Shown: piece after piece, positions 5,113 through 62,367 of the stretch
Numbering within the stretch: the stretch's first letter is position 1
Layout of the letters: every line of letters starts with the position of its first letter
DNA from: a virus
IMG/VR virus record: IMGVR_UViG_3300042569_000591
Span: 1 to 63,251 of that record
DNA: 63,251 bases
Strand: one strand, 5' to 3'
The notes under the pieces: generated by a model
What the model was told of the DNA's origin: nothing
Database searches by the model: none
The model's input: the letters and a program-made list of their open reading frames with translations, nothing else
Translations under genes and position numbers: made by a program

Positions 5113-5541
5113 TTAAAGTTGTCCAAGGTCAGCTAATGATGTGTAAGCTGAAGTAGGGGTTAATATAATGCTGTCTAATAGATTGATATCTAACAAGTTA
5201 AGACCTTGCTTTAGTTTTTTGCTCAGGGTGATGTCCTCAGGTGATGGCGCTGGATTTCCAGACGGATGGTTGTGGCAAAAGATTACACCGCTCGATAGGC
5301 TGTCAATAGCATACTTCGCGACTATCTTTGGATCAACATATGTGCCTGCAATTCCGCCTTGGCTTATCTTGGCATAGCCGATTGTTTGGTTCTGACGATT
5401 TAGCATCAAAATGAACGCACTCTCGAATACCTCGATGTCATCACCGTAAAATTGACGGATGAATAGTTGCGCTTCATTTGATGTTGTTATCTTCTCGGTT
5501 GGGAAGTCTGACTGTATTTTTTTTAGCTCGAATAGTTTCAT
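5113..5541 (-). CDS. radC: RadC-like JAB domain protein
   Basis: 142 residues covering the JAB/MPN metal-binding domain of the RadC family. HNHPSGNP (His90, His92, Ser94) is followed by SPED (Asp103), the conserved metal site, after strand SAFILMLNRQNQTIGYAKIS. The helix-hairpin-helix segment of full-length RadC is absent, as in many phage and plasmid versions. Metallopeptidase-like or DNA-repair-associated roles have been proposed for the family, but activity is not established. It starts next to the TATGACGAAAT array; the first repeat abuts its start codon. Confidence 0.8.
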   Translation of the reverse strand: MKLFELKKIQSDFPTEKITTSNEAQLFIRQFYGDDIEVFESAFILMLNRQNQTIGYAKISQGGIAGTYVDPKIVAKYAIDSLSSGVIFCHNHPSGNPAPSPEDITLSKKLKQGLNLLDINLLDSIILTPTSAYTSLADLGQL

Positions 5542-5867
5542 ATGACGAAATTTAGGTGTTTATGACGATTTATGACGGCGATATGACGAAATTATAGGGC
5601 TCAAACCCTTATAGATACTGACTTTATGACGAAATGACGACTTTTTACCTATATTTTCAAAAAAAAAAAAAATACTACTATATATAGTATATACACATAT
5701 GTATATGTGTATATTTTCTCTATATAGGGGTGAAATTTCGTCATATCGTCATCCCTTATTGATAATCAGGGAGTTACGATTTACGTTTCGTCATATCGGG
5801 CTGTTTTTCGTCATATTTAGTCTGTTTTTTAGACGATTTCGTCATATCTGATGACGATTTCGTCATG
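5541..5867. repeat. Inverted iteron array with AT-rich core, candidate replication origin
   Basis: TATGACGAAAT or close variants occur in one orientation at 5541-5551, 5561-5570, 5582-5592 and 5625-5635. They occur in the opposite orientation (ATTTCGTCATA) at 5735-5745, 5786-5796, 5806-5816, 5836-5847 and 5857-5867. Between the arms are an A13 tract, the palindrome TACTATATATAGTA and a 10-bp-arm hairpin ATACACATAT-GT-ATATGTGTAT (about 5691-5712). Symmetric iterons around an easily melted core are the usual form of a phage origin or a regulator-binding region. The right arm partly overlaps a short gene (5774-5917). Roughly 5552-5773 has no gene. Confidence 0.6.
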
Positions 5868-5917
5868 TTGGCAGGCTCAAGGCCTGTTAGCTTTACAAAT
5901 TGGTCTATTGTGTACAT
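5774..5917 (-). CDS. Short protein encoded across the right iteron arm
   Basis: A 47-residue frame opening MYTIDQFVKLTGLEP, whose first helix looks like the start of a small DNA-binding or regulatory domain. It continues through the repeats, which it reads as MTKSS units, and ends MTKRKS. It overlaps the upstream gene by 13 nt, like other genes in this operon. Either it is a real small basic protein whose gene was invaded by the repeats, or only its first third is meaningful. Confidence 0.4.
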   Translation of the reverse strand: MYTIDQFVKLTGLEPANMTKSSSDMTKSSKKQTKYDEKQPDMTKRKS

Positions 5918-6126
5918 TTAATTATGGTTTTTAAATTAATCATGCGATAAGCTCTCTTGTGCATATCGAATACTACTAATAAGTTTTTTTCAGCAGGGTC
6001 AAACTTTAGACCTACACCTTTTAGGTTTTTCTTGACGCCCAGTCGGGCCGTCATCTTTCTTAATGAGCCGTCTTTCTTGACGAACGTTACACTGAAAATC
6101 TTTCCGTTTTTAATTTGTTCTAACAT
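5905..6126 (-). CDS. Conserved small beta-barrel-like phage protein
   Basis: 73 residues with GKIFSVTFVKKDGSLRKMTARLGV near the N-terminus and YRMINLKTI near the end. I recognise this pattern from many short phage proteins, probably an SH3-like beta barrel, often found in host-takeover regions. It has no known function. It overlaps the upstream short gene by 17 nt and the downstream one by 13 nt. Confidence 0.6.
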   Translation of the reverse strand: MLEQIKNGKIFSVTFVKKDGSLRKMTARLGVKKNLKGVGLKFDPAEKNLLVVFDMHKRAYRMINLKTIIKCTQ

Positions 6127-6253
6127 ATTCTTTAAAGTAATATTGCACCAATTGGCGCAAGGTTAAACGATTGGTGTATTGACTGCATTGTGTGGCGTAG
6201 AAGCCATTGATGATTGTGACATTTCCGTCATCAATCCATTCTCTAAATCTCAT
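6110..6253 (-). CDS. Hypothetical 47-residue protein
   Basis: The frame starts MRFREWIDDGNVTIINGFY and ends YYFKEYVRTN. It exactly fills the gap between two recognised small genes, overlapping each by 11-17 nt, which is the usual spacing here. The middle (NRLTLRQLVQYY) looks helical. Family not recognised. Confidence 0.5.
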   Translation of the reverse strand: MRFREWIDDGNVTIINGFYATQCSQYTNRLTLRQLVQYYFKEYVRTN

Positions 6254-9238: not shown

Positions 9239-9667
9239 TTTTATTTGTGTTGGTTAGTGGTGCAGTGAGTATCGCTCTCATTAATTAGTCATTCTAACTG
9301 CACCTAATATCTTGTATGCCACGTGAAACTGCATACCCTCTTTTATTCCCTACAGGCATCACCATTGGGCCTGTGGTTTTGACGTTGACCACCTGAGTAG
9401 TGTATCAATCGTCCCGACTTTGCGGAGTCTTTATACTTACCGCATCGGCCTCGTATGACCTACCGAGTTAGTTTATTGTCTTACATGATGTCAAAGAACT
9501 TAGCTTAGAGCTTGTTAGCAGACCTACCTTTGAACCACTTAACCACGGTGGGCTCCCCGAGGGGCACTTAGTTAAGCTTTATCGTTTCGGTCACCTTTAA
9601 TATACTGATTCGTCATCGTAACGCCTTAAGGATTGCTTTAAGAAGTATTGTTATTAGCTCGTTTGCT
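9239..9667 (-). ncRNA. Long structured leader or noncoding RNA
   Basis: The transcript predicted from the promoter at 9673-9704 runs ~430 nt before the first annotated gene and carries a series of perfect stems. These are GGTGCAGT/ACTGCACC (9259-9266/9297-9304); GTATGC/GCATAC (9314-9319/9331-9336); ACAGGC/GCCTGT (9352-9357/9369-9374), which shares two bases with GTGGT/ACCAC (9373-9377/9388-9392); and CCGA plus TGCGG with CCGCA plus TCGG (9414-9425/9440-9448). Further along are CTCG/CGAG (9450-9453/9464-9467), CTTAAC/GTTAAG (9538-9543/9571-9576) and CCCC/GGGG (9555-9558/9561-9564). Its only reading frame of note is a 14-codon one (MTNQYIKGDRNDKA) near the 5' end. It may be a stand-alone RNA or a cis-acting leader. 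Confidence 0.55.
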
Positions 9668-9672
9668 TGATA

Positions 9673-9704
9673 CAAATATATGGCAACAATTCGGATTGTG
9701 CAAA
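9673..9704 (-). promoter_or_regulatory. Strong Bacteroidota-type promoter for the left operon
   Basis: On the minus strand, TTTG (complement of 9701-9704), 20 nt, then TATATTTG (complement of 9673-9680). Both boxes and the spacing match the Bacteroidota consensus. It directs transcription into the structured leader and the small-gene operon, so it is the likely early promoter. Confidence 0.7.
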
Positions 9705-10341
9705 TAATTTGAACAAAAATATTCAAAAAAGTGCTAATTTATATTCATTCTAAATAAGAGACACGTTTGTCTGACGGCTAATTGCTTTAGAATCAGTAAG
9801 TTACGACTATAGTAACCTCAATAGCACTCAAATAGGTTTGCTTTGTGAATTGATAGGTAGGTGCAACCCTCTCTCTCCGGGAGCGCAACCAACAGCGCAA
9901 ACAAACGAACGGCCGGCCGTCAGGCGCACCGAATGAACGGCTGTTTGATTGGTCTCAAAGTCTATTCTATTTAACATAATGCTAATTATATAACATGCCT
10001 ACCTACCGACTACGACAAACGGCAACAAGGCATGTAGGCCGTCTATATTGGTATTGACGACAAACGATAGGCCGACTGGAAAAGCCAAAAAGTTCGGCCG
10101 AAAAGTTCGAAAAGCAGACCCCCCTACCCAAAAAGCAAACCGTTTCCCTTCCGGCCTGGCTCGCGTCAGATGGGGGTATTACCCAAAACCTCTATACATC
10201 TAAAAATCATTATATTTGCAGTATGATCATAACACTCTATCCGACGTTCGGCCTATCAGTAGGTTTTGACTATTTGCCTGCAGAAGGGGACCTTCGGCCG
10301 GAGTTTCTTTTTCATTTGTTTATTTTTAAATTATCTATATC
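9705..10341. other. Divergent noncoding region with hairpins
   Basis: No convincing gene is visible on either strand. Structures seen are TTTGAA/TTCAAA (9708-9713/9722-9727), ATTCTAAA/TTTAGAAT (9747-9754/9786-9793) enclosing AGACA-CGTT-TGTCT, the 12-bp palindrome ACGGCCGGCCGT (9909-9920), ACATGCCT/AGGCATGT (9993-10000/10028-10035) and the direct repeat AAAAGTTCG (10088-10096, 10101-10109). The stretch is visibly richer in G+C than nearby intergenic DNA. No tRNA cloverleaf was found. It could contain a rightward noncoding RNA, an origin or packaging signals. Confidence 0.5.
10211..10218 (+). promoter_or_regulatory. Possible -7 box (TATATTTG) upstream of the rightward genes
   Basis: TATATTTG matches the Bacteroidota -7 element perfectly, but no TTG is present 19-20 nt upstream. 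It lies 123 nt before the ATG at 10342. It may need an activator or be used late. Confidence 0.35.
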
Positions 10342-11358
10342 ATGGCAATAATGCGCACAAATCGACTCACGTCGAAGACCACTGCACCTGCAAAGGGTGG
10401 TAGAAAATTCACATCAGCATCTGAGCTTGAGGCACAGGACGCGGCTTACAACAAGTATAAATCTGATCTTCCTATTTATGAGAAGAAGATGAAGAGGTAC
10501 AATGAGGAGAGTAAGATTACTAGTAGGGATTACAATACTCTTGGTGGTAAGAAAAATGTTAGAAAACTAAATTCAGAGGAATTAGCTAAATACAATTATA
10601 ATTCTATGAATAACCCAAATGATGATTCTGCTTTAGAGTATAGAACTGTTGAAGTCAATAAGGGCTATAATAAAAAATCAAGTGATAAGAATTTTATGAT
10701 TGGCACTTGGCATCATACAAGCAATCCTATCAAACCAACAGCACCAAAGAAAACCAATCCTGCTGATTGGTCTAATGTTGAGTTGGGTAAGATTGATACT
10801 AAAAAAGCCAAGATAACTACACAAAAAGGTAATTTAAAGAAGCTTAAGGCTACTCCAGAGCTTCCTTCGTTTGAGGGTCCTACTAAAAGCGCTGGTATTA
10901 AGAACAGTGTTGACATGAATCCACTTGCTCAGGGTGCTTACACTAAGGGCAATAAAGGTCGTTATGCAAAGCAAGTTGTTGAGTCTGTAGGTAAAACAGG
11001 TAAGACAAGAGGATTTGATCGTGAGAGAAAGCAGTTTGAGGCATACGCAGGAGCTGGTGGTGATCAAACCAAGTCAATGTTCAAGGCTGAGGCTAAGCAA
11101 TCAAGACAAATTGGCGCTCAGTACAGAGCTGAGGGTAATGCTGAGGGTGCTGAGATGATGCGTCAAGAGGCTAAACAGTTCCGTAAAGCTGCTCAGTTTG
11201 CTGGTAAAGTTGGCAAGGGTAATAATAAGTACTTTGATCGCAACATGGTGAGTGAGTTCAGAGGATCTAAAGAGAACGCAGCCAATCGTAATACGATGGA
11301 AGCTAAGATAAAAGCCGCTGGAGCCAAAGCAGCTAACAATCGAAACACTTTATATTAA
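10342..11358 (+). CDS. Large Lys-rich hypothetical protein
   Basis: 338 residues, very basic and low in hydrophobics. The N-terminus (MAIMRTNRLTSKT) and middle (PTAPKKTNPADWSN) look disordered. The C-terminal third is helical and Ala/Lys-rich (KAEAKQSRQIGAQYRAEGNAE). It is probably a virion-associated or DNA-condensing protein, an inference from composition and from the many tiny basic genes downstream. It is closed by a good terminator (11364-11386), so it forms its own transcript. Family not recognised. Confidence 0.6.
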   Translation: MAIMRTNRLTSKTTAPAKGGRKFTSASELEAQDAAYNKYKSDLPIYEKKMKRYNEESKITSRDYNTLGGKKNVRKLNSEELAKYNYNSMNNPNDDSALEYRTVEVNKGYNKKSSDKNFMIGTWHHTSNPIKPTAPKKTNPADWSNVELGKIDTKKAKITTQKGNLKKLKATPELPSFEGPTKSAGIKNSVDMNPLAQGAYTKGNKGRYAKQVVESVGKTGKTRGFDRERKQFEAYAGAGGDQTKSMFKAEAKQSRQIGAQYRAEGNAEGAEMMRQEAKQFRKAAQFAGKVGKGNNKYFDRNMVSEFRGSKENAANRNTMEAKIKAAGAKAANNRNTLY

Positions 11359-11433: not shown

Positions 11434-13002
11434 ATGGTAGTAAAACATGTACATTTAGGCGACGAAGGTCGCAAAAAGCTCATTAAAGGCATCAAAACGA
11501 TCGCTGGAGCTGTAAAAAGCACATTAGGTGCGCGAGGCCGCACTGTGTTAATCGAGTCAGAGCACCATGTCGGTGGTATTACAGTCACAAAGGACGGTGT
11601 TACGGTCGCTAAGTCGATCAATCTGTATGACCCGGTTGAAAATCTAGCTGTTATGATGATGCGACAGGCTGCTGAGAAGACAGCTACTGTTGCTGGCGAT
11701 GGTACAACCACGTCAATTGTCATTGCGGAGGCCATTGTTGACGCGGCATCTGACGTTTTAACGCCAGATGACAACGTCACCGAGGTAATCCGTGAGATCA
11801 ATAGCATTACAACAAATGTTGTAACGCATCTGACCAAACGTGCTAAGAAGCTATCAGGTAAGAAGCTTAAAGATGTGGCTTCAATCAGTGCAAACAATGA
11901 CACCACTATTGGTGGCATGATCGCTGACGCTTTCAGTGAGGTTAAGATGGTATCTGTTGAGAACAGTAAGGACCACAACACGTATGTTGAGGTGATTAAG
12001 GGGATTAAGGCTGACCGAGGTTGGACTAGTCGCTATTTTATCACTGACTACAAGCGTCAGGAGGCTGTATTGGAGAACCCATATGTGTTGATCACTGACC
12101 AGGAGATCAATAACTTGCTCAATATTGAGCGCGTACTACAACATGTAGTCGCTCAGAACAAGTCTTTGCTTATTATTGGTGAGATGCCAATAGCTGCTTT
12201 GAACACTTTGAATATTAACGTTGCTCAGGGCAAAATCAAGGCATGTAACATTTTACCTCCAAGCTTTGGCTACCGTCAGAAAGATTTGCTGGAAGACCTA
12301 GCGATTGTATTGGGTGGTACATACTTCAGTGAGGACACTGGTGATGACTTGTCGTTGATCGACGTTGCTCACTTAGGTCGTTGTGCTAAGGTGATCGTTG
12401 GCAAGGACAACACTATCTTTATGCCATATGCTAGCTCACAAGAAGCTATTGACAACCGCATTGCTGATATCAACGAGACAATATTCGACGGCATCACTAA
12501 AGAGGAGATGGACAACCGTAAGGAGCGAGTGGCCAATCTATCTGGTGGTGTTGCTGTGATCTATGTAGGTGCGTTGAGCGACATTGAGCAGAAGGAGAAG
12601 AGAGATCGCATTGACGACGCTGTGTGTGCAGTTGAGGCCGCGTTAGAGGAGGGCATTCTTCCTGGTGGTGGTGTTGCACTGCATGAGTATGCTAACATGT
12701 ACTTACGTGGCAAGCTTGGTGCAGCTAAGGAGATTATGTACAAAGCACTGAAGTCACCGATGCGTCAGATCCTTGAGAACGCTGGTAAGGACGCTCAAGA
12801 GATCATGGACAACATCTTACCATTCGATAACGAGGGTTACGACGTGAAGGGTGAGCAGTATGGTGACATGATGAAGCTTGGTATTATTGACCCGGCTAAG
12901 GTTACAAAGAACGCCTTGTTGAACGCTGTGTCTGTAGCGACTACGATCATGAGCACAAATGCAATAATCACAAATATCAGAGCAGATGAAGGTATTAAGT
13001 AA
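11434..13002 (+). CDS. groEL: Phage chaperonin GroEL (Cpn60)
   Basis: This 522-residue protein is a complete group I chaperonin subunit. TKDGVT (about residues 52-57) and GDGTTT (88-93) form the nucleotide site, and GILPGGGVAL (about 405-413) and the SGGVAVIYVGA segment belong to the second equatorial half. The C-terminal Gly-Gly-Met tail of cellular GroEL is absent, and length is slightly under the usual ~545. The double ring encloses unfolded protein and uses ATP to fold it. The phage copy probably folds virion proteins or lets the phage bypass the host chaperonin. It overlaps groES by 17 nt. Phage GroELs are known but uncommon. Confidence 0.95.
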   Translation: MVVKHVHLGDEGRKKLIKGIKTIAGAVKSTLGARGRTVLIESEHHVGGITVTKDGVTVAKSINLYDPVENLAVMMMRQAAEKTATVAGDGTTTSIVIAEAIVDAASDVLTPDDNVTEVIREINSITTNVVTHLTKRAKKLSGKKLKDVASISANNDTTIGGMIADAFSEVKMVSVENSKDHNTYVEVIKGIKADRGWTSRYFITDYKRQEAVLENPYVLITDQEINNLLNIERVLQHVVAQNKSLLIIGEMPIAALNTLNINVAQGKIKACNILPPSFGYRQKDLLEDLAIVLGGTYFSEDTGDDLSLIDVAHLGRCAKVIVGKDNTIFMPYASSQEAIDNRIADINETIFDGITKEEMDNRKERVANLSGGVAVIYVGALSDIEQKEKRDRIDDAVCAVEAALEEGILPGGGVALHEYANMYLRGKLGAAKEIMYKALKSPMRQILENAGKDAQEIMDNILPFDNEGYDVKGEQYGDMMKLGIIDPAKVTKNALLNAVSVATTIMSTNAIITNIRADEGIK

Positions 13003-13243
13003 GTATTTGATTGTCAAGAAAATAGCTGAGCAGAAGCAGACTAAGAGTGGTTTGCTTCTGACTGGCGAGGACGCTAATGAGATGCGTTACCATAAGGCTA
13101 TTGTCTACAAAGTAGGCGACAGCATCAATGGTATAAATTCAGATGACACTGTCTTGTATGACAAGGTTCAGAGTTATGACATTGTCTTAGACAATGAGCG
13201 AATGACGATCATTCAAGAGAGGGACGTTGTTTGCGTTCTTTAA
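12986..13243 (+). CDS. groES: Phage co-chaperonin GroES
   Basis: 85 residues against ~95 for cellular GroES. The fold pattern is kept: SKYLIVKKI, then a mobile loop TKSGLLLTGED with the hydrophobic tripeptide that docks into GroEL, then HKAIVYKVGD, DDTVLYDK and ERDVVCVL at the end. The roof loop region is shortened. Its start lies inside groEL in another frame, so the two are made together and should form a matched lid and barrel. It overlaps the end of the convergent winged-helix gene by 35 nt. Confidence 0.88.
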   Translation: MKVLSKYLIVKKIAEQKQTKSGLLLTGEDANEMRYHKAIVYKVGDSINGINSDDTVLYDKVQSYDIVLDNERMTIIQERDVVCVL

Positions 13244-13700
13244 ATCGATCGTTAAAATTATTAATGGCGTGAGCAAGGGTCTTCTGATGGAATGGAGCGT
13301 TCTGTCTGAAGACCTTGTTGCGTCTTGGTGACGTCGGAATCGGTTCTAATCCGGTTAACTTCTTATATATTGACGTAATCATCTTCTTACACTTAAAAGA
13401 CACCTCATACATATTGGCCTCTCCGAAACCACGTTTGCGCCATATATAAATCCATTCTTCTTTGAGAAGTCTATCGAAACGGTTCCTATCCCAGTTCATG
13501 AAGTTGGCATATTCAGCGAAGTCTGCCCTAGTGAATAGCTTTTGTTTGTGTAGAAAGAGTAGCATCTCTAGATCTGAGCGACTTAGCTCATAGTTGATCT
13601 GTGCCCATTTACGAACGATAGACCATTCGGCCAGAAAGTCGTAAGTCAAAGGTCTACGTTCATAGGCCTTATCTTTTTTATATCTTCGTTTGATTTTCAT
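13209..13700 (-). CDS. Winged-helix DNA-binding protein (MarR/PadR-like)
   Basis: The 163-residue protein has LSRSDLEMLLFLHKQKLFTRADFAEYA followed by DRNRFDRLLKEEWIYIWRKRG, which reads as helix, recognition helix and beta wing. Basic tails at both ends (MKIKRRYKKDK and RFKERKQRP) support DNA binding. It is the only leftward gene within the rightward block, and its promoter overlaps that of the following late genes. It could therefore switch that divergent promoter pair. I recall similar proteins in other Bacteroidota phages. The regulator role is inferred. Confidence 0.6.
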   Translation of the reverse strand: MKIKRRYKKDKAYERRPLTYDFLAEWSIVRKWAQINYELSRSDLEMLLFLHKQKLFTRADFAEYANFMNWDRNRFDRLLKEEWIYIWRKRGFGEANMYEVSFKCKKMITSIYKKLTGLEPIPTSPRRNKVFRQNAPFHQKTLAHAINNFNDRFKERKQRPSLE

Positions 13701-22273: not shown

Positions 22274-22481
22274 AAAAATTTCCATTGGTCCTGACTATAT
22301 GAAGTGCATGCACTATATGGTAGGCCAAGAGGTGCTAGATCGCACTTGGACTATCGACACTATCAGAGTCGAGGATGATAATGCTATTCGTATCTACATC
22401 AAAAAGAACGGAGAGATTATCAAGTGGAAGTCTTTTTCTAATACAATGCCTATCTCTATTGAGTATAAAATAGATTACTAA
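22260..22481 (+). CDS. Hypothetical small protein with GTG start
   Basis: The frame opens at GTG 22260, inside the last codons of the preceding gene, giving 73 residues (VNIIRKISIGPDYMKCMHYM when read literally). The first ATG is at 22299. The body has VLDRTWTIDTIRVEDDNAIRIYI, a strand-rich fold often seen in small phage proteins. It ends one base into the next ATG. Confidence 0.5.
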   Translation: MNIIRKISIGPDYMKCMHYMVGQEVLDRTWTIDTIRVEDDNAIRIYIKKNGEIIKWKSFSNTMPISIEYKIDY

Positions 22482-23038
22482 TGAAATCACCATACTGCTT
22501 CATCATCAAACCAGTTGGTCAGAGGCGGTACGATAACATAAAGAAATTCGGTGATACCGAATTCTACATCAGTTCCTCCCAAGAAGACCATAAGACATCT
22601 AACCGCCACGCTGAGGTGGTTGCAGTCCCTATTTACTATGATGGTCCAGTTAAACCTGGAGATGTAGTTCTTGTGCACCACAATGTGTTCAAGTTCTACT
22701 ATGACATGAAGGGCCGTCAGAAGAGTAGCTGGAATTTTATAATGGATGACTTATTCTTAGCTGAGCTTGATCAGGTCTATATGTTTAAGAGAGATGACAA
22801 GTGGAATGCCGTAGATCCTTTTATCTTTATCAGACCAATACCAAGTGAAGATAAGGTGATCAGCACGCTAGGATCGCTTGAGGAGATGTGGGGTGAGGTT
22901 GTGTATAAGACACCTACACTGACAGATGTCAGCGTTGGCGACACAGTATCATTCACACCTGATAGTGAGTATGAGTTTAGGATAGATGATGAGGTTCTTT
23001 ACCGAATGTATAACAAGAACATATGTCTAAAAAGATAG
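22481..23038 (+). CDS. Beta-barrel protein resembling a tandem GroES fold
   Basis: The 185-residue protein has two related halves. One is AEVVAVPIYYDGPVKPGDVVLVHHNVF; the other is WGEVVYKTPTLTDVSVGDTVSFTPDSEYEF ending RMYNKNICLKR. Each follows the G-x-V-x-x-x ... V-x-x-G-D-x-V ... D-I-x order of GroES-like barrels. I recall similar proteins before TerL in other phages, sometimes annotated as co-chaperone-like. No mobile-loop motif is visible, so binding to GroEL is not supported. Assembly chaperone or connector role is inference. Confidence 0.5.
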   Translation: MKSPYCFIIKPVGQRRYDNIKKFGDTEFYISSSQEDHKTSNRHAEVVAVPIYYDGPVKPGDVVLVHHNVFKFYYDMKGRQKSSWNFIMDDLFLAELDQVYMFKRDDKWNAVDPFIFIRPIPSEDKVISTLGSLEEMWGEVVYKTPTLTDVSVGDTVSFTPDSEYEFRIDDEVLYRMYNKNICLKR

Positions 23039-23304
23039 AGATTGTAGAGGCAGCCAAGCAGGCAATAGATGAGTTGATAAAGGTGCTAAAGTCACCTATC
23101 ATCACTCACGCTGAGGATGACATATCTGCAGACAAGATGAAGAACGCTGCATCAGCTAAACGTTTGGCTTTTGAGGATGCTATGTATATGCTCAACAAGA
23201 TTGAGGAGGAAGAGAACAAGGCATCTGAAACACCCGTTGCTGAAGTAACGTTAGGAAAGTCAGGATTCGCTGAGGGCAGAGCTAAAGCTAAAAATGGAAA
23301 ATAG
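23023..23304 (+). CDS. Small terminase subunit candidate
   Basis: This 93-residue protein is helical: IEIVEAAKQAIDELIKVLKSP, then DKMKNAASAKRLAFEDAMYML, with a basic tail SGFAEGRAKAKNGK. It sits directly before and overlaps TerL by 11 nt, the usual place for the small subunit that recognises packaging sites. Related proteins occupy the same place in other Bacteroidota phages. It lacks a recognisable N-terminal DNA-binding domain, so the assignment rests mainly on context. Confidence 0.5.
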   Translation: MSKKIEIVEAAKQAIDELIKVLKSPIITHAEDDISADKMKNAASAKRLAFEDAMYMLNKIEEEENKASETPVAEVTLGKSGFAEGRAKAKNGK

Positions 23305-25513
23305 TTTATATAAAGTCCTTAAGGATCACCTACACAGATCGGTAATTGTGACAAAGAACAAGCACAAGTCTTGGGCTTATGGTTACAATAAAGAGTATGA
23401 CATCATTGTTATATCAAAGGACGGAACTGTAGGAGATATCTACGAGATAAACAACTTAAAGATTGCACTACCTGCCATACCTAAAGAAGTAGAGAGCAGA
23501 GACAACAGATGGCAACCAATAGAATACCCTGCCGAGCTTCAGAAGATTAAGTCAATATTTGATTGGAACCGTAGAGATAATGTGTTCAAGTTGAAGTATG
23601 TCGACATGATCGAGACTGAGTTTGAGCGACGTGAGCAAGGATATTGGTTTATGAATAATGGTGAGCCTACCTACATGACGGGTACTCACTACATGTATCT
23701 TCAGTGGACTAAGATTGACATCGGTCTACCTGACTTCCGTGAGTCCAACCGGATATTCTATATATTCTGGGAGGCATGCAAGGCTGACAACAGATCTTTT
23801 GGTATGTGCTACCTAAAGAACCGTCGTTCAGGTTTCTCATTTATGTCATCTGCCGAGACGTCCAATACAGGTACAATTGTAAGAGATGCTAGACTTGGTA
23901 TTTTATCTAAAACTGGTTCTGATGCTAAAAAAATGTTTACTGATAAGGTTGTACCTATAGTAAGAAATTACCCCTTCTTTTTCAAGCCGATCCAGGATGG
24001 TATGGACAACCCGAAGACGGAGTTGGCCTTCCGGGTTCCTGCGAGTAAGATCACTCGTAAGAATATGGATGAGGAGCGCGATGATGATATAGAGGGGCTA
24101 GATACTACCATCGACTGGAAGAACACTGCAGACAACAGCTATGATGGTGAGAAGCTTCTTTTACTAGTTCACGATGAGAGTGGTAAGTGGGAGAAGCCAG
24201 AGAACATTCTAAATAACTGGCGTGTAACTAAGACATGTCTTAGATTGGGGTCTAAAATTATTGGAAAGTGCATGATGGGTTCAACATCAAATGCGTTGAG
24301 CAAGGGTGGTGAGAACTTTAAGAGGCTATATTACGATAGTGAACCTACCAAGAGATCTGCCAACGGTCAGACTAAATCAGGTTTATATTCTTTGTTTATT
24401 CCAATGGAGTGGAATATGGAAGGATTTATTGACGAGTATGGTTGGCCAGTATTTGATGATCCAAAGAAACCTGTGAAAGGTATCGATGGAGAGGATATAA
24501 CTATGGGTGTCATCACCTATTGGAATAATGAGGTTGCTGCGATGAAGTCAGACTCTGACGCACTCAACGAATACTATCGTCAGTTCCCTAGGACTGAGTC
24601 TCACGCGTTCCGTGATGAGAGTAAGTCATCTTTATTCAACCTAACAAAGATATATCAGCAGATCGACTACAATGACTCCATGATTAAAGATAGAGTATTG
24701 ACTCGTGGTTATTTCCATTGGAAGAATGGTGAGCAAGACAGTGAAGTAATTTGGACGCCTGATCCAAAGGGCAGGTTCTTGGTATCTTGGATACCCGACC
24801 AGAATATGCGCAACAACGTCATTAAGAAGGATGGTAAGTTCTATCCCGGCAATAAAGATATTGGTGTGTTTGGGTGTGACCCTTATGACATATCCGGTGT
24901 AGTTGGAGGAGGTGGGTCCGCTGGTGCGCTACATGGAATCACTCAATTCCATATGCAGAACGCTCCAACAAATCACTTTTTTTTAGAGTATATTGCTCGT
25001 CCTCAGACTGCTGAGATATTTTTTGAAGAGGTGCTGATGGCTTGTTTCTTTTATGGCATGCCTATCCTTGTAGAGAATAATAAGCAGCGTTTGCTGTACC
25101 ATTTTAAGAATAGAGGTTATCGTCAATTTTCATTAAATAGACCTGATAAACACATATCAAAGTTATCAAAAACAGAGCTTGAATTAGGTGGTATTCCAAA
25201 CTCTTCAGAGGATGTAAAACACGCGCATGCTAATAGTATCAACACTTACATTGAAGAATACGTTGGAATTGACGCAGACGGTAATTATCGAGAAAAAGAT
25301 AGTATGGGTGATATGTACTTTACCAAAACTTTAGAAGATTGGGCTCGATTTGATATAAACAACAGGACAAAACATGATGCCTCAATTAGTTCTGGATTAG
25401 CATTAATGGCATCTAGAAAACACCTATTTATACCTGTTAAACAGGAATCTAAAATAAGTGTTAAATTTGTAAGATATAAGAATACTGGCATAAGAAGCGA
25501 AATTATCGAATAA
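23294..25513 (+). CDS. terL: Terminase large subunit
   Basis: 739 residues, longer than typical TerL because of an N-terminal extension (about 100 residues). The ATPase has a Walker-A-like KNRRSGFS (about residues 174-181) and Walker B LLLLVHDESG (about 287-296). The RNase-H-like nuclease begins at GVFGCDPYD (about residue 524), with further acidic residues in VENNKQR and in the D/H-rich C-terminal part. It packages DNA into the prohead using ATP and cuts it at the end. It is followed at once by the portal gene. Confidence 0.88.
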   Translation: MENSLYKVLKDHLHRSVIVTKNKHKSWAYGYNKEYDIIVISKDGTVGDIYEINNLKIALPAIPKEVESRDNRWQPIEYPAELQKIKSIFDWNRRDNVFKLKYVDMIETEFERREQGYWFMNNGEPTYMTGTHYMYLQWTKIDIGLPDFRESNRIFYIFWEACKADNRSFGMCYLKNRRSGFSFMSSAETSNTGTIVRDARLGILSKTGSDAKKMFTDKVVPIVRNYPFFFKPIQDGMDNPKTELAFRVPASKITRKNMDEERDDDIEGLDTTIDWKNTADNSYDGEKLLLLVHDESGKWEKPENILNNWRVTKTCLRLGSKIIGKCMMGSTSNALSKGGENFKRLYYDSEPTKRSANGQTKSGLYSLFIPMEWNMEGFIDEYGWPVFDDPKKPVKGIDGEDITMGVITYWNNEVAAMKSDSDALNEYYRQFPRTESHAFRDESKSSLFNLTKIYQQIDYNDSMIKDRVLTRGYFHWKNGEQDSEVIWTPDPKGRFLVSWIPDQNMRNNVIKKDGKFYPGNKDIGVFGCDPYDISGVVGGGGSAGALHGITQFHMQNAPTNHFFLEYIARPQTAEIFFEEVLMACFFYGMPILVENNKQRLLYHFKNRGYRQFSLNRPDKHISKLSKTELELGGIPNSSEDVKHAHANSINTYIEEYVGIDADGNYREKDSMGDMYFTKTLEDWARFDINNRTKHDASISSGLALMASRKHLFIPVKQESKISVKFVRYKNTGIRSEIIE

Positions 25514-37911: not shown

Positions 37912-40562
37912 GTGTAAAAACTAAGCAGTTATTTAGCTACACAGGTAGTTTAACATATACGATTGATAATGTAGTGTTAAGTGATGGTGCGATTGCATTA
38001 TTTGATGCATCTACAGGGATTGGTGGAGTTGGGTATGTACCATATAATGGATCTTTAGTTACTGTTGTTGCTGGTGATGTTTTATCAGACTATCGTCAAC
38101 TTGCTCCAACATTAAATAATAAGCTATATTACTTAGTTTCTAATACTGAATATACAGCAGCTGACAAAACAATAATACTTGGTTTGGCAACTGAAATTCC
38201 AGTTATCTATTCTGGAGGAGTTTTTACAGGTCAGTTCGTTTTCTCAAATCCAAATAATTACGAATATGTCTATTTATTGTGGGATTATGAGGATAAAATT
38301 AACACGGTTGCATCTTACAAGGGCGTAACAGAAAGTCGATCAATTGACATGTCTTTTGGTTCTAATATAGGTAGAGCTGGTATTAATTTCAATACTGCTG
38401 ATCCTGATCAACCAACTAGATATCAGGTTGAGTGGAATGGAGAAATTGTTATTGATACTAAATATGTTGGGGTTAATTCTTCTTCCAACTATAATGCATT
38501 AATTGCAGCTGGAGTCCCGGTAGATGAAATAGGATTAGTTGCTCCATATGACGGTACAGTAAATAATGGTGTTGGTACTGCTGAATTCTATAAGAATCTT
38601 CCAGTATCAGATGCTAGCTTAATTGTCTCATCTCCATTTAGTGGGTCTACTTGGATTGTAAATAAAATTAGTCCATATTTAACTCAGTTTTATATTGATA
38701 ATGATCCTGGAACACCTTTAAATGTATGTGCTCAATGTCCTAATGTATCTACTTACCATAATGGCGTTGATGCCCTGCCAAATGTTGGAGATCAGTTGTT
38801 TACAACAAGCACAGGTTCAGATGTTTACATTGGTGATGATTCTCTACATCTTATTGATAGCACATCGTGTGTGACTCCTCCTATATCTAACTTAAGCTAT
38901 ATTGAGGTAAGTCCAACTGGTGAGGTGGCATCAAAACAAAGTTGTACTTGTTCAGAATTTGCGGTTCCATTTATTATTGCAGATCCAATATCAACTGCTA
39001 CCAATGTATCAGAAAATGTAACTATTGAAGTTATTAATAACCCAACCTCATGGAATTTACTTGCAAGTACATTGCCAAATCAAGTAACATTTTCAAATGG
39101 GGATTTATATTTTAATAATTGTCCTGCAGGAGTATACTCAATAACAGTTAGAGCTCAAAATTGCTTTGGCGTTAGCTTAGCTGTTACAATTCCTATTACA
39201 GTGTCTGATCCTGGAAATATGAAGCCTTTTTTAATTGACGTTGAGCAATTTAAAGAATCTGGATCAGATGCTTGCTTGGTTATACCCACGTTCACTTTAA
39301 TGTACTTTGACGGTGATGGATATATACCTGATTTAGTAGATAAAGTATTCTATGATTCAGATGGATTACGTCCATTTATGGGAGGTAAAAAATGGTATCA
39401 GATTAATGACTCAGATTATAGCATACAAATTGACCAAGATGGAACAATTATTGCTAAATCTAATTGTCCTGGCACTACTACAACAACTACGACAACTAGT
39501 ACAACTACTCTTCCAACTGGAACATACTTTTCAGGAACATCTTGCTCTGATAATTCAGTTACTGTAGTTTTAAGAAATTCATTAGGTACTCCGATAACTA
39601 CATCATTAGTTGTTAGAACTACAGATGGTAATTGTTGGAGAATAAATGGATCAACATCGGCATCATTTCCTTATTACAATATAGTCACGCCTATTGTTAC
39701 ATATGCAGATTGCACTGCGTGTACTGGAACTACTACAACAACGACTACTACAACAACTACAACGGCAACTCCTGTAAGTAGTTTTGATCTTGATGTAACT
39801 CCATTTAATACAAGTGTATTAGCATGTACATCCACACCATCTTATGTTACATATTATCATACTGGAACACTAGCAGTAAACAGTTTTGTTTACATTGACT
39901 CAGGAGCTACTACATTGTTTGATGGAGCATTTTTATGGTATTTAGTTAGAAAATCAGGTGTAATTTATGCTTGCTTAATTGCTGACACTGGTCAAATACT
40001 GCAATTATTAGCTTGTTCTGGTGTAACTACTACAACTACAACGACAACAATACCTTATTACTACTATATTGGTAATAAATGTGTTGGTGGTGCTTCTGTG
40101 TTGATGAGATACCAAGGATTTGAGCCTCTGTCTCTTCCTAATTTCATAAAAGATAGTAATGGAGATTGTATTACTATATCAGCAACAGCATCTCCAGGTT
40201 CTCAGAATGGTGATATTTACTATGTATATGGAAGCTGCTCTGAATGTGCAGCAACTACAACCACGACATCAACTACAACCACGACATCAACAACTACAAC
40301 AACTACGACAACCACAACTACAACAATGCCAACTTATACGAAGTTGGTTTTGTCATACTCTTCTTCACAATCATCTGTTTGTACAGATATAAATATTGGA
40401 GATTATTATGTAAATGGAGCAATTGGTATTCCTGGAAATAATATCTTTACAGATATCTTAGGAGTTACATTAGCTCCTGCTGGTTGGTATTTGAATTTAA
40501 TTATTAATGTTGCTTACGAGTGGGACGGATCAGACTGGACCGGGGCAACTAAATCTTGCTAA
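37908..40562 (+). CDS. Modular adhesin with poly-threonine linkers
   Basis: 884 residues. The N-terminal ~330 residues are a beta-rich tail-binding region. An Ig-like domain (about 345-440) is followed by four Thr tracts, at nt ~39474-39512, 39728-39770, 40024-40053 and 40251-40328. The tracts separate small Cys-containing modules (for example YYYIGNKC, then GDCITISATASPGSQ, then GSCSECAA). Modules near the tracts resemble each other, which implies duplication. Thr tracts would act as stiff, possibly O-glycosylated spacers. It is probably a tail tip or fibre binding the host surface. Confidence 0.65.
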   Translation: MSVKTKQLFSYTGSLTYTIDNVVLSDGAIALFDASTGIGGVGYVPYNGSLVTVVAGDVLSDYRQLAPTLNNKLYYLVSNTEYTAADKTIILGLATEIPVIYSGGVFTGQFVFSNPNNYEYVYLLWDYEDKINTVASYKGVTESRSIDMSFGSNIGRAGINFNTADPDQPTRYQVEWNGEIVIDTKYVGVNSSSNYNALIAAGVPVDEIGLVAPYDGTVNNGVGTAEFYKNLPVSDASLIVSSPFSGSTWIVNKISPYLTQFYIDNDPGTPLNVCAQCPNVSTYHNGVDALPNVGDQLFTTSTGSDVYIGDDSLHLIDSTSCVTPPISNLSYIEVSPTGEVASKQSCTCSEFAVPFIIADPISTATNVSENVTIEVINNPTSWNLLASTLPNQVTFSNGDLYFNNCPAGVYSITVRAQNCFGVSLAVTIPITVSDPGNMKPFLIDVEQFKESGSDACLVIPTFTLMYFDGDGYIPDLVDKVFYDSDGLRPFMGGKKWYQINDSDYSIQIDQDGTIIAKSNCPGTTTTTTTTSTTTLPTGTYFSGTSCSDNSVTVVLRNSLGTPITTSLVVRTTDGNCWRINGSTSASFPYYNIVTPIVTYADCTACTGTTTTTTTTTTTTATPVSSFDLDVTPFNTSVLACTSTPSYVTYYHTGTLAVNSFVYIDSGATTLFDGAFLWYLVRKSGVIYACLIADTGQILQLLACSGVTTTTTTTTIPYYYYIGNKCVGGASVLMRYQGFEPLSLPNFIKDSNGDCITISATASPGSQNGDIYYVYGSCSECAATTTTTSTTTTTSTTTTTTTTTTTTMPTYTKLVLSYSSSQSSVCTDINIGDYYVNGAIGIPGNNIFTDILGVTLAPAGWYLNLIINVAYEWDGSDWTGATKSC

Positions 40563-57623: not shown

Positions 57624-57879
57624 TATACCAGTTTGCCGAGACTCCGTGGGCTTTCAGCTCCTTAATTCTATAGACCTGCAGAGGTCTCGGCTTATGTCCT
57701 GGACGTTTTACTTCTATAAATTTAACATCTGAGTTCTTTGGTATGGCTATCAAGTCAGGTATTCCTGGCTTATTGGTAACCGATAGTTTGAGTACGTAGT
57801 ACCCATCACTCTCCAACTTTTTGATCAGTTTCGCTTGTATCTGCTGCTCGGTCACTTGCAAATGTAGAGTTTTTTTCAT
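57598..57879 (-). CDS. VRR-NUC domain nuclease
   Basis: 93 residues, a minimal VRR-NUC (PD-(D/E)XK) domain: VTEQQIQAKLIKKLESDGYY, GIPDLIA (Asp42), KFIEVKRPG (Glu56, Lys58) and RPLQVYRIKEL. Stand-alone VRR-NUC proteins of phages resolve branched DNA or cut specific structures in replication. It overlaps the upstream DnaA-like gene by 74 nt out of frame. Confidence 0.85.
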   Translation of the reverse strand: MKKTLHLQVTEQQIQAKLIKKLESDGYYVLKLSVTNKPGIPDLIAIPKNSDVKFIEVKRPGHKPRPLQVYRIKELKAHGVSANWYNGEYYDIE

Positions 57880-58270
57880 AAAAACCCATCTTTACACGCC
57901 TTTGAATTCTTTTAAATGTGATAAAATTTTTAGCTTCCAATAGATCTTGTTTAAGATCGTAGTATCTGTCACGCTTAAAAACTTTACTAATATTTGGAAA
58001 TTCAAGGCCATCCAAATCTGCTTGTATTGCACACGTCTCTGCAACATAATCTACGTCTCTATAACTTAACATATCCTTATGTACTCTAAGTCCATGTAGA
58101 ATAGTTGCATGATTTTTTCCAAATATCTCACCTATCATACTGAGACTTAATCCGTAATTTCTTAATTCGTTGTAGATGTAATATCTTTTGAATAACACAT
58201 CCCTTCTTCTTGTTTTCTCCTTGAGAGAATATTTCTCAATTAAATCATTTATCTTTTCTAGTCTGTTCAT
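57806..58270 (-). CDS. DnaA domain IV-like DNA-binding protein (copy 1)
   Basis: The 154-residue protein has a DnaA C-terminal-type helix-turn-helix at about residues 23-66: RDVLFKRYYIYNELRNYG, then LSLSMIGEIFGKNHATILHGLRVH. The pattern S/M-x-x-I-G-x-x-F-x-x-x-H-x-T-I/V-L-H matches the DnaA signature. There is no AAA+ ATPase. The tail (after residue 120) is polar. It may bind DnaA-box-like sites in the genome as an initiator or regulator. It shares this domain with 61933-62367. Confidence 0.7.
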   Translation of the reverse strand: MNRLEKINDLIEKYSLKEKTRRRDVLFKRYYIYNELRNYGLSLSMIGEIFGKNHATILHGLRVHKDMLSYRDVDYVAETCAIQADLDGLEFPNISKVFKRDRYYDLKQDLLEAKNFITFKRIQRRVKMGFYEKNSTFASDRAADTSETDQKVGE

Positions 58271-59489: not shown

Positions 59490-59751
59490 CTTTCAGTAAT
59501 TTAATTGCATTGTTTAATTCATCTGTCAGCTCTTTCGATTGACTGACCGATGGCAACTCCCTTCTTAAGGCAATGATGGCATAGTAAGGATCGGCATACC
59601 ATTCGATATGTAGTCCCTTAAGTATACCTATGGCATTGAGATACGAGTCAAGCATGTCAGAAAGCTCCTTGCGAATCTTCTTACTTTTATTCATATTCAT
59701 AATCTCAATGGATGCCTCCATTCGTTTCTGTAGAATAACTAGTGCTAACAT
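59461..59751 (-). CDS. Hypothetical helical protein
   Basis: 96 residues, helical: MLALVILQKRMEASIEIMNM, then RKELSDMLDSYLNAIGIL, then ELTDELNNAIKLLKDE. It is located between primase-helicase and helicase genes with short overlaps, a place often taken by small replication accessory proteins. Family not recognised. Confidence 0.5.
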   Translation of the reverse strand: MLALVILQKRMEASIEIMNMNKSKKIRKELSDMLDSYLNAIGILKGLHIEWYADPYYAIIALRRELPSVSQSKELTDELNNAIKLLKDESTKKLSK

Positions 59752-62078
59752 AACTTTGTTTGTATTGGTTCTTTAACAATAAAATGTATCTCCTTGCCAT
59801 TCATACCTTTGTATGCCCTTGGCTTCTGACCAAACGCATACTCACCATATGCATCTAACCAATGGTAGAACTTAGCGTTTGACAGCTTATATCTACCATA
59901 CCTATCGTAGTCAGGATAGTCAGCAATAAATCTGTTGAGCATGTCCTGGCCTACTGACTTAGCGTTTGGCTTGGTGTCCATGTTGTCTCTAGATGTAGCC
60001 CACTCCCAAAACTCTGGAGATGTCTCAGCTATCAACTTACGGACCTTGAGGTTCTTGAATTCAGTCTCAACCAATCCTTTCTTCAGATATAACTGAAGGT
60101 TTCGGATCATGTAATTATCAAACTTAATCCACTCACTATCGTCCCATCCACTGTATAGCATGTGTCCAAACTCATCCTCAGGCGTTCTGTCTTTGGTATA
60201 GTACTGTCTGAACTCAAGGTCCCACTTACGTCTCTCGAATGAGTTCCCTGCACCCTTGATGGCGTAGTTAGTGGTGATGAATATCTTTGGCGACCGCTCG
60301 AAAGGAATGTGTATCTCATCCTTGTTCTTCTTTTCCAATGTGATACCCTCAGTAATCACAGAGAATAAGTTCTCAAAGGCAAACCCCTTAGACACATCAT
60401 CAAACACCAACACCTGAGTGTCAACCTGCACACGTTGGTATGGAAATGACTTCTGAAAACTGAAACCTTTACCGTCAATCTTAACCATCTTTTTCATGTG
60501 GTTGATCGAGTTGACAAAGATACCTTTACCAGTACCTCCCTCAGGGTTGGAGCTGATGACCTCATCGTTTAATATGACAGCCGGGCAATAGCTCGCTGGC
60601 TTATAGCTGTGCATCATATAGCCTAACGTTGACTCCATCGATCGCTTGCGAGACTCGTCGTCACCTGAAATGTTCTTGACAAACGTCTCGAACTCGTTAT
60701 CTCCGATGTTATCTGAGAATACAAACTCACGATTGATGCGCTGCATCTCCCACACATGGCCACCCAAGTCTTTATAGTCAATGACATTGACGCTGTCTTT
60801 TGTTATCTGAACAGCACAGTTTAAGTAATACAAGTATGCGCTGTCAATGGTGTCTTCCTTGAACACTGCATCAATCTTTGGCACAAAGTTTAAGAACGTC
60901 TCCTGGAAGAACTTGGTGTTCATAGCGAAGTAGTTGTACACCATCATGTCGTCAATCTCTAGCAAGTAATCCAACACAAAGTCTTTAATCATGTCGTCAG
61001 TCACATCGCTCATCAAGTTGTCAATCACCCTGACAAACACAAACGTCCTTGATCCCGGTGGATAGTATTTGAAGAACCCATTGTTATTTAGAAAGATTCT
61101 AAATAAGTGTGGCACCACCTCAACTTTACCTTTACTAGACTTGGTCCAGAACTCAGTGATCTCTGGCAGCTCCTCGATCTGATACTTCTCAGCGACCTGC
61201 TCAGCTGGAACACCTCTCTTAAGCTCATTCTTTACGTTCTCAAACTCATCGTAAAATTTAGTACCAAACGTCGACATATCCTTGTATGCGCTTCTAACAA
61301 TCGTTGTTATCTCTGACGCCATGTCGCCACCTTGATCCTGATCGTTTAGAATTGAGTGAGCCATCGACTGATCAATGCCATACTCCTTCAATGCAATTGC
61401 TAGCACATATAAGTTGTTGTTGCGCTGTCCTGGAACCATGCCGTAGTTCTTACCCCACCAAATACTTAAGCGTCTGATGATCTCATTGGTGTCGTCTACC
61501 CTGATGGTTGTTGTTTGCGCAACACGTTGTTGCGCAGGCATCGGCTTAATCATGTCAATGAACACCTGACTGTTCTCGTTTACATAGATGTCTGGGTCAT
61601 ACGACTCATAGCATACACGGCTGAGGTTCTTACTTGTTGTATCAAACTCCTTGCAGAAGAACAACGAATGAAGGCCATCAAAGTAGTACTTGTGGTTCTC
61701 AATGTCAGCAGGTATCTTTACCAACATCTTCAACCCATCACCTGATGGTGACGTGAATATAGCATGCGCATAAGGGCTTAACTGCAGCTCAAAACGTTTG
61801 TCATATAATGCCTGCTGATCGTCAAAGCCATCAAAGTCTAGGCAGATAATCCCACTGTGCTCGATGCAGGCAGTGTCTGCACGCTTCTCAAACTTACCGC
61901 TAAAGCATATCGCTGGAAGAAGTTTCTTCTTCTCATTGCGCGCATCCTTTTGAGTAAGGGCTCTCACTTCCTCCACTATCTGCTGCGACTTGCCCTCCTT
62001 GATTCTCTGAAGAGCCTTCTCCAACGGAACGTAGAATGGCTTGCTCGTGTTCGTTACTGTTTGAAAGTAGGTTATCAT
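59745..62078 (-). CDS. Primase-helicase (VirE_N/BT4734-like primase plus SF3-type helicase)
   Basis: 777 residues. The N-terminal ~190 residues match the VirE_N/BT4734-like family: MITYFQTVTNTSKPFYVPLE, LPAICFSGKF, then HSGIICLDFDGF and FTSPSGDGLKMLVKI, an archaeo-eukaryotic-primase-like core. After a linker with PGQRNNNLYVLAIALKEYG comes an SF3-like ATPase: NPEGGTGKGIF (about 510-518), VLVFDDVSKGF (about 552-560) and IFITTNYA (about 604). It should prime and unwind DNA at the origin. The start fits the family although it overlaps the upstream gene by 146 nt. Confidence 0.82.
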   Translation of the reverse strand: MITYFQTVTNTSKPFYVPLEKALQRIKEGKSQQIVEEVRALTQKDARNEKKKLLPAICFSGKFEKRADTACIEHSGIICLDFDGFDDQQALYDKRFELQLSPYAHAIFTSPSGDGLKMLVKIPADIENHKYYFDGLHSLFFCKEFDTTSKNLSRVCYESYDPDIYVNENSQVFIDMIKPMPAQQRVAQTTTIRVDDTNEIIRRLSIWWGKNYGMVPGQRNNNLYVLAIALKEYGIDQSMAHSILNDQDQGGDMASEITTIVRSAYKDMSTFGTKFYDEFENVKNELKRGVPAEQVAEKYQIEELPEITEFWTKSSKGKVEVVPHLFRIFLNNNGFFKYYPPGSRTFVFVRVIDNLMSDVTDDMIKDFVLDYLLEIDDMMVYNYFAMNTKFFQETFLNFVPKIDAVFKEDTIDSAYLYYLNCAVQITKDSVNVIDYKDLGGHVWEMQRINREFVFSDNIGDNEFETFVKNISGDDESRKRSMESTLGYMMHSYKPASYCPAVILNDEVISSNPEGGTGKGIFVNSINHMKKMVKIDGKGFSFQKSFPYQRVQVDTQVLVFDDVSKGFAFENLFSVITEGITLEKKNKDEIHIPFERSPKIFITTNYAIKGAGNSFERRKWDLEFRQYYTKDRTPEDEFGHMLYSGWDDSEWIKFDNYMIRNLQLYLKKGLVETEFKNLKVRKLIAETSPEFWEWATSRDNMDTKPNAKSVGQDMLNRFIADYPDYDRYGRYKLSNAKFYHWLDAYGEYAFGQKPRAYKGMNGKEIHFIVKEPIQTKLC

Positions 62079-62367
62079 ATTCTTGTTTATATTCGTTAAT
62101 CACTGACAAATAAGCAAGGTTGCCCTTGATAGTCATACCATTGTAGTCATAGGTCTCAGACATGAACTTCTCATGCATCTTGATTCCATGTATGACTACA
62201 GAATGGTGTCTGTTAAACAACCTACCGATCTGTTGTAGTGTCATGTGGTCTCTAAGTATACTGAACAAATAGTCCCTCTTGTATACCAAGTCGATACGCT
62301 GACTTGGACCATCCAAGCCATCTCTCTCAATCCATTGTGTTATTTTTTCTAGCATACAAATTCTCAT
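61933..62367 (-). CDS. DnaA domain IV-like DNA-binding protein (copy 2)
   Basis: 144 residues (or 140 from the ATG at 62355). SQRIDLVYKRDYLFSILRDH, then MTLQQIGRLFNRHHSVVIHGIKMH aligns with the copy at 57806-58270 at KR-x-Y, LR, IG-x-x-F, H and HG-x-x-x-H. No ATPase domain is present. The Ser/Gly/Glu-rich tail (EGSSENQGG) overlaps the primase gene by 146 nt out of frame. Likely recognises origin or operator sites. Confidence 0.65.
   Translation of the reverse strand: MRICMLEKITQWIERDGLDGPSQRIDLVYKRDYLFSILRDHMTLQQIGRLFNRHHSVVIHGIKMHEKFMSETYDYNGMTIKGNLAYLSVINEYKQEYDNLLSNSNEHEQAILRSVGEGSSENQGGQVAADSGGSESPYSKGCAQ

Follow-up and report, generated by a model that had tools for sequence, protein, structure and literature searches.

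A Mirror-Image Iteron Array as Candidate Replication Origin in a Family of Bacteroidota Podoviruses, with a Fused Primase-Helicase as Its Likely Reader

1. The Array and Its Neighbouring Genes

The DNA analysed, hereafter called the window, is the podovirus record IMGVR_UViG_3300042569_000591 in its full length of 63,251 bases. At positions 5541–5867 it carries two arms of short repeats that mirror each other around an AT-rich core, much as the original prediction had described them, with only small corrections being needed. The left arm (5541–5640, plus strand) begins at radC (5113–5541, minus strand), whose start codon, at 5541, overlaps the first repeat, as had been foreseen; in relatives, other genes are found on that side. 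Beyond the right arm (5738–5867, minus strand) lies a 47-aa gene (6110–6253, minus strand), which members of the window lineage retain next to the array. The small gene announced within the right arm is present as an open reading frame (ORF 5774–5917), but it consists mostly of repeats and is seldom conserved. Counterparts, there too largely made of repeats, occur only in the close relatives G001, G017, G018 and G019 (the last being a near-identical contig of the window), and none was found in the other relatives compared.

With up to two mismatches allowed, TATGACGAAAT occurs in forward orientation at 5541, 5561, 5582 and 5625 and in reverse orientation at 5735, 5743, 5785, 5805, 5836 and 5857; the predicted number of forward copies (four) stands, and that of reverse copies rises from five to six. 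The iterons of the left arm read TATGACGA at the four forward positions. Reduced to the hexamer core TGACGA, the left arm holds five forward copies and one TGACGG at 5573 (plus-strand starts at 5543, 5563, 5573, 5584, 5627 and 5635), and the right arm holds six reverse copies (TCGTCA at 5738, 5746, 5788, 5808, 5839 and 5860) and one opposing forward copy at 5852. The resulting spacings (20, 10, 11, 43 and 8 bp on the left; 8, 42, 20, 31 and 21 bp on the right) are approximately multiples of the helical turn, except for the 8-spaced doublet with which each arm ends at the core (left, TATGACGAAATGACGA, 5625–5640, plus strand, 8-bp spacing; right, 5738–5751, minus strand). The core itself (97 bp, 5641–5737) is 79% AT against 62% for the window. 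It includes a run of 14 A residues (5659–5672), miscounted earlier as 13, and a near-palindrome (5679–5724), and is a probable DNA-unwinding element. Phased repeats adjoining an AT-rich region, the general hallmark of iteron origins, are found here.

The hexamer TGACGA is strongly concentrated at this place, with 12 of the 51 copies on both strands of the window falling within 340 bp in which 0.21 would be expected (Poisson probability about 1e-17). Likewise, TATGACGA, with 8 copies, is the top clustered 8-mer of the whole window over such a distance, while in 40 Markov-1 random genomes no 8-mer exceeded 4 copies within 340 bp. Counted over the whole window with 2 mismatches allowed, the 11-mer is not unusually frequent (32 versus 27.4 expected); what is unusual is the clustering and the mirror symmetry, not the number of 11-mers in the window. 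Rfam gave no match in the window.

2. Conservation of the Architecture in Related Phages

The window portal is akin to those of Flavobacterium elemo phages, Cellulophaga phages and Maribacter phage Panino, and both portal and primase are related to those of MW202828, a circular record. Querying the phage collection with the array region, for close as well as remote DNA similarity, gave nothing useful. The loci fetched comprised 21 for radC and 55 for the primase, 19 contigs were read whole or nearly whole, and one scan with an alignment of distant primases yielded at least 572 primase relatives, 80 of which were kept. The primase relatives from genome collections belong mostly to Bacteroidota bins.

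A search for the repeat in relatives had been proposed together with the original prediction, and it revealed a layout kept in many phages around an iteron that drifts (TGACGA, TGTYRA). In the window clade (G001, G002, G004, G016, L012 and L030), TGACGA mirror arrays lie beside the 47-aa gene 6110; in the sister clade (G003, G005, G007, G008, L044 and L049) the arrays are of TGTYRA type, mostly beside the same gene; and L056 and G010 carry TGTYRA/GTGTYRAC forms. In the more distant G011, G013 and G014 only doublets and core are left, the doublets being mirrored and of GTCGA type, and MW202828 has likewise only doublets and core, beside groEL, with a second copy upstream of its primase. Further distant phages show TGACGA doublets adjoining groEL. 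The architecture is retained at about 48% primase identity (G011, G013, G014 and MW202828), with sequence and neighbours changed. The window itself encodes GroEL- and GroES-like proteins (11434–13002 and 22481–23038), and in distant relatives the origin-like element lies next to groEL. A similar stretch (TGCCTCACA...GTGAGGCACTATTGATTCATGGGGG) was also observed downstream of the array in L030 (2350–2460) and G008 (40250–40560), possibly a hairpin or regulatory element.

Over 15 related arrays, the 126 same-strand spacings cluster at 8, 10/11, 20/21, 31, 42 and 53/54, the relatedness of these arrays meaning that the spacing p-values are not independent evidence. When inverted arms or doublets flanking an AT core were sought under strict criteria, few arrays were recovered, and motif-based calling performed better. 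An automatic caller that required inverted iterons from a single class, one doublet or more, and a core of 55–112 bp with at least 70% AT made 53 calls on 146 sequences (11 TGACGA-type and 42 TGTYRA-type), against 0 and 3, respectively, on the same sequences reversed. The caller found no element in L030. Arm and doublet scans detected no comparable array in the leading 50 kb of NC_055853, an elemo phage (L134), or in the leading 48 kb of Panino (L136), nor was one seen at most of the distant primase loci (L059–L078, the doublet scan covering those other than L062, L067, L071, L072 and L078), save for low-scoring, chance-like matches.

3. Position of the Element and Its Possible Role as an Operator

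Across relatives the element is found near radC, near groEL, or 68–110 bp upstream of the primase gene. The last position is that of the sister lineage, in which it holds for 30/30 called loci, mostly at 77–80 bp from the primase start (30 loci called among 81, 75 of the 81 having more than 300 bp upstream). In four of the 30 (L246, L277, L278 and L302, with the primase at 10001) a second copy lies about 9 kb further upstream, and in these genomes and MW202828 the second copy is some 9–11 kb from the primase-proximal one.

Such constancy is a point against reading the element as an origin, as it fits a promoter-operator arrangement equally well. Initiators often autoregulate, and in the window the element abuts the radC start codon. 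The array might accordingly be an operator and nothing else, through whose iterons the primase-helicase or another protein regulates early genes, with replication starting elsewhere. In the window lineage, however, the element occupies a place other than upstream of the primase, and the array has an exchangeable gene on its other side, which is radC, the 188-aa gene 4541 or an unrelated one, depending on the relative; because the flanking gene changes, the array is not a private operator of radC. An AT-rich core of about 100 bp between mirror-image arms is also unusual for an operator, and in four distant genomes (G011, G013, G014 and MW202828) the element sits at the cumulative GC-skew minimum, 0.2–1.0 kb away. 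A purely regulatory function is thus considered unlikely, and the pattern is compatible with an origin that may have a regulatory role besides.

GC skew had been named as a check on the origin, a minimum located elsewhere counting as refutation; the outcome was mixed, and in the window the refuting result is seen in part. The element lies 0.2–4.7 kb from the cumulative minimum in 11/11 genomes tested, a set in which several incomplete contigs were treated as circles, but the window accounts for the upper end of the range, its own minimum being 4.7 kb away, at 10.4 kb, where the coding strand switches. The 1-kb skew values at 6–9 kb have the same sign as those of other minus-strand genes in the window. 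Since skew follows the coding strand, it supports the neighbourhood and cannot place the origin. At the strand switch and skew minimum the window has a stretch of about 1.1 kb with few ORFs (9240–10340), inside which an IHF-consensus match was noted at 9791–9803.

4. An IHF-Consensus Site beside the Core

The right arm of the window includes a site, AATCAGGGAGTTA (5764–5776, plus strand), 21 bp outside the inner right iteron, that matches WATCARNNNNTTR, which we take to be the IHF consensus, with R at position 6. In the window this pattern has 19 matches where 12 are expected, so that a single match there means little. PMC10380432, which describes IHF as acting at oriC, gives the consensus as WATCAAnnnnTTR. 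Across 49 elements (duplicates L170 and L301 removed), 31 have the consensus 7–36 bp outside the inner iteron and reading outward, mostly at 20/21 bp and in some cases a turn further out, at 31/32 bp. Among the same elements the inward orientation matched in 2 and the reversed motif in 1, and 300 permutations of the motif averaged 0.42 with a maximum of 16. The first count was post hoc, the motif having been noticed by eye; in the out-of-sample elements the consensus is present in 16/31. No exact match was found beside the element of five window-clade members (G001, G002, G004, G016 and L012).

5. Candidate Readers of the Iterons

A protein that binds the iterons should have a DNA-reading part that changes with them, and this premise was applied to the candidate binders. 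The original prediction put forward two DnaA-like proteins and a winged-helix protein, none of which turned out to track the iteron type. DnaA domain-IV-like protein 1 (61933–62367, minus strand) carries the Pfam DnaA C-terminal domain and its gene overlaps the start of the primase gene; in the elemo and Panino phages, initiator genes adjoin the primase. These features would suit an origin bound by the DnaA-like proteins, or else by the winged-helix protein (13209–13700). The recognition segment MTLQQIGRLFNRHHSVVIHGIKMHEKFM of protein 1 is, however, identical in the window (TGACGA) and G005 (TGTYRA), while the recognition helices of the window and G001 differ despite common iterons. For DnaA-like protein 2 (57806–58270, minus strand), the G002 version shares its type with those of G003, G005 and G008, although G002 has TGACGA and the other three TGTYRA, and the winged-helix protein is mixed between iteron classes. 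Between the two sister clades these three candidates have just 1, 5 and 7 disjoint alignment columns, against 92 in the primase. The DnaA box TTATNCACA is absent from the array and occurs 3 times in the whole window versus 4.2 expected. With covariation failing, the DnaA-like proteins are rejected as binders, and an origin read by them or by the winged-helix protein appears highly improbable. The two DnaA domain-IV-like proteins are paralogues that lack an AAA+ domain; both are conserved in the lineage, and phages appear to have exchanged them. A DnaA-like protein of G005 (10214–10636) is 94% identical to its window counterpart in a genome otherwise of the sister clade, a resemblance that points to recombination adjacent to the primase gene.

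The remaining candidate is the primase-helicase (59745–62078, minus strand), which combines an AEP-type N-terminus, a D5-like helicase and a predicted C-terminal winged helix (residues 676–777; 59748–60053, minus strand) with a recognition helix at 734–749 and a wing at 754–765. Its fold matches include PrimPol S-2L, RepB', AsfvPrimPol, D5 and the SaPI5 primase-helicase, and it belongs to Pfam DUF5906. In the structure model the winged helix, its wing at 754–758/761–765, has pLDDT 80–85 and the helicase core is weak (below 50 at 492–634); the C-terminal domain alone gave weak fold matches (best E 0.15), with mostly winged-helix regulators at the top. The earlier statement that the phage lacks a polymerase is borne out only as regards families A and B, neither of which was found in the window.

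Six of the 92 columns by which the primase separates window clade from sister clade are consecutive (755–760). The clades are also separated by exonuclease 1474 (67 columns), the 159-aa protein 2237 (18) and GroEL (50), so that the two-clade comparison alone fails to single out the primase. A more specific signal comes from residue 757 in the wing (codon at 59808–59810, minus strand; K in the window). In 22 phages, with L150 and L164 set aside, eight columns were disjoint between iteron types and only 757 was uniform on both sides; in 53 phages, with the same two set aside, it was the sole fully associated column (K 9/9, R 42/42), the class being taken from reading for 23 of these loci and from the caller for 30, with uncalled loci dropped. 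This K/R rule was found after looking, and related phages are not independent. Judged by the rule as it then stood, an out-of-sample scan around L224 (71 new loci, 66 after dropping 5 duplicates) fitted at 31/31 called loci (29 R-TGTYRA and 2 K-TGACGA), with 35 uncalled (31 R and 4 K). Altogether residue 757, on the predicted wing of the C-terminal domain, covaries with the iteron type, K with TGACGA and R with TGTYRA, in 82/84 phages, and among these 82 it is the sole disjoint column. On a FastTree phylogeny of the primase without its C-terminal domain, residue 757 changes five times and the iteron six, the five switches being approximate because several nodes are weak.

The closest contrast is that of L224 (K, TGACGA) and L356 (R, TGTYRA), sisters on the tree with primases 86% identical, whose arrays were both read directly; the class of L224 was read with its K and its TGACGA score both in view, that is, not blind. 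L223, whose R757 primase shares 95% identity with that of L217 (K757), has no element called on its contig. In the two exceptions, L150 and L164, TGACGA repeats go with R757; their primases are 36–37% identical to that of the window, which makes the wing alignment less sure, and judging from these sequences residues other than 757 must matter as well.

Inverted iteron clusters also occur at partition and packaging sites, and the array could in principle be a centromere-like or packaging site. It is with a replication protein that the iterons covary, however, no ParB-like gene (nor a tyrosine integrase) was found in the window, and the terminase gene (23294–25513) is far from the array; a role of this kind is scarcely credible.

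6. A Working Model for Initiation

The reading of the array as an origin is well supported by its architecture, phasing and AT-rich core, by the IHF-consensus site, by its proximity to the skew minimum and by the covariation with the primase. As far as comparative sequence evidence goes, the element is quite probably the origin, or one of two, of a large family of Bacteroidota podoviruses, read by a primase-helicase resembling P4 alpha and SaPI Rep. In such a scenario, the phage primase-helicase would bind the iterons through its C-terminal winged helix, wing residue 757 (K or R) would assist in reading iteron positions 3–5 (ACG or TYR), and one hexamer would be assembled on each arm. Host IHF would bend the DNA at the element, and the AT-rich core would open between the two helicase assemblies. 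The two helicases would then depart in opposite directions, with the AEP domain priming and a host polymerase elongating.

A bolder proposal, to which we give somewhat better than even chances, is that the K/R757 exchange alone switches the accepted origin between TGACGA and TGTYRA, that protein and site set have changed together about five times, and that some members have two origins, one at the initiator gene and the other about 9 kb away. Because L224 and L356 are 86% identical in their primases and differ in their iterons, such a joint change of specificity in an initiator and a multi-site origin is directly testable. What is striking is that one wing residue and all the sites that it would read have repeatedly changed together. 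If true, these phages would offer a natural series of co-evolved initiator–origin pairs. A conserved candidate origin with its likely initiator is now available for a family whose primase loci number at least 572 in a single scan. In the literature searched, where coverage of subscription papers is partial, no account of this origin was found. To our knowledge, little has been learned about replication origins in Bacteroidota phages, none having been found in that literature.

7. Comparison with Known Replication Systems

Phage P4 has two sites, ori and crr, which the two-copy phages described here recall, and its iterons differ in sequence and arrangement from those of the present element. 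According to PMC4234260, the P4 alpha protein unites primase, helicase and an origin-repeat-binding winged helix, and the same three parts occur in one protein here. The P4 primase is there described as TOPRIM-type, whereas the N-terminus in the window matches the AEP enzymes PrimPol S-2L and RepB'. Primase, helicase and C-terminal winged helix are fused, as here, in the replication protein of the crenarchaeal plasmid pRN1, although the putative pRN1 origin is a stem-loop without iterons (PMC4234260).

In the SaPIs, Rep is an initiator helicase whose C-terminal domain recognises short origin iterons, and it has been likened to a phage primase-helicase (PMC7581432). The same paper describes a separate primase protein and an origin directly downstream of rep; in the phages studied here, by contrast, a single protein carries both primase and helicase, and the element is found either upstream of its gene or at a distance of several kb. 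The likeness to the SaPIs resides in a D5/SF3-like helicase, with fold matches to the SaPI5 primase-helicase and to D5 and the Pfam family DUF5906.

E. coli oriC resembles the element in bringing together initiator sites, an AT-rich unwinding element and an IHF site. It is unlike the element in that the array has no DnaA boxes and its arms mirror each other around the core. The element would belong to a known kind, that of iteron origins, with a fused primase-helicase as its proposed reader.
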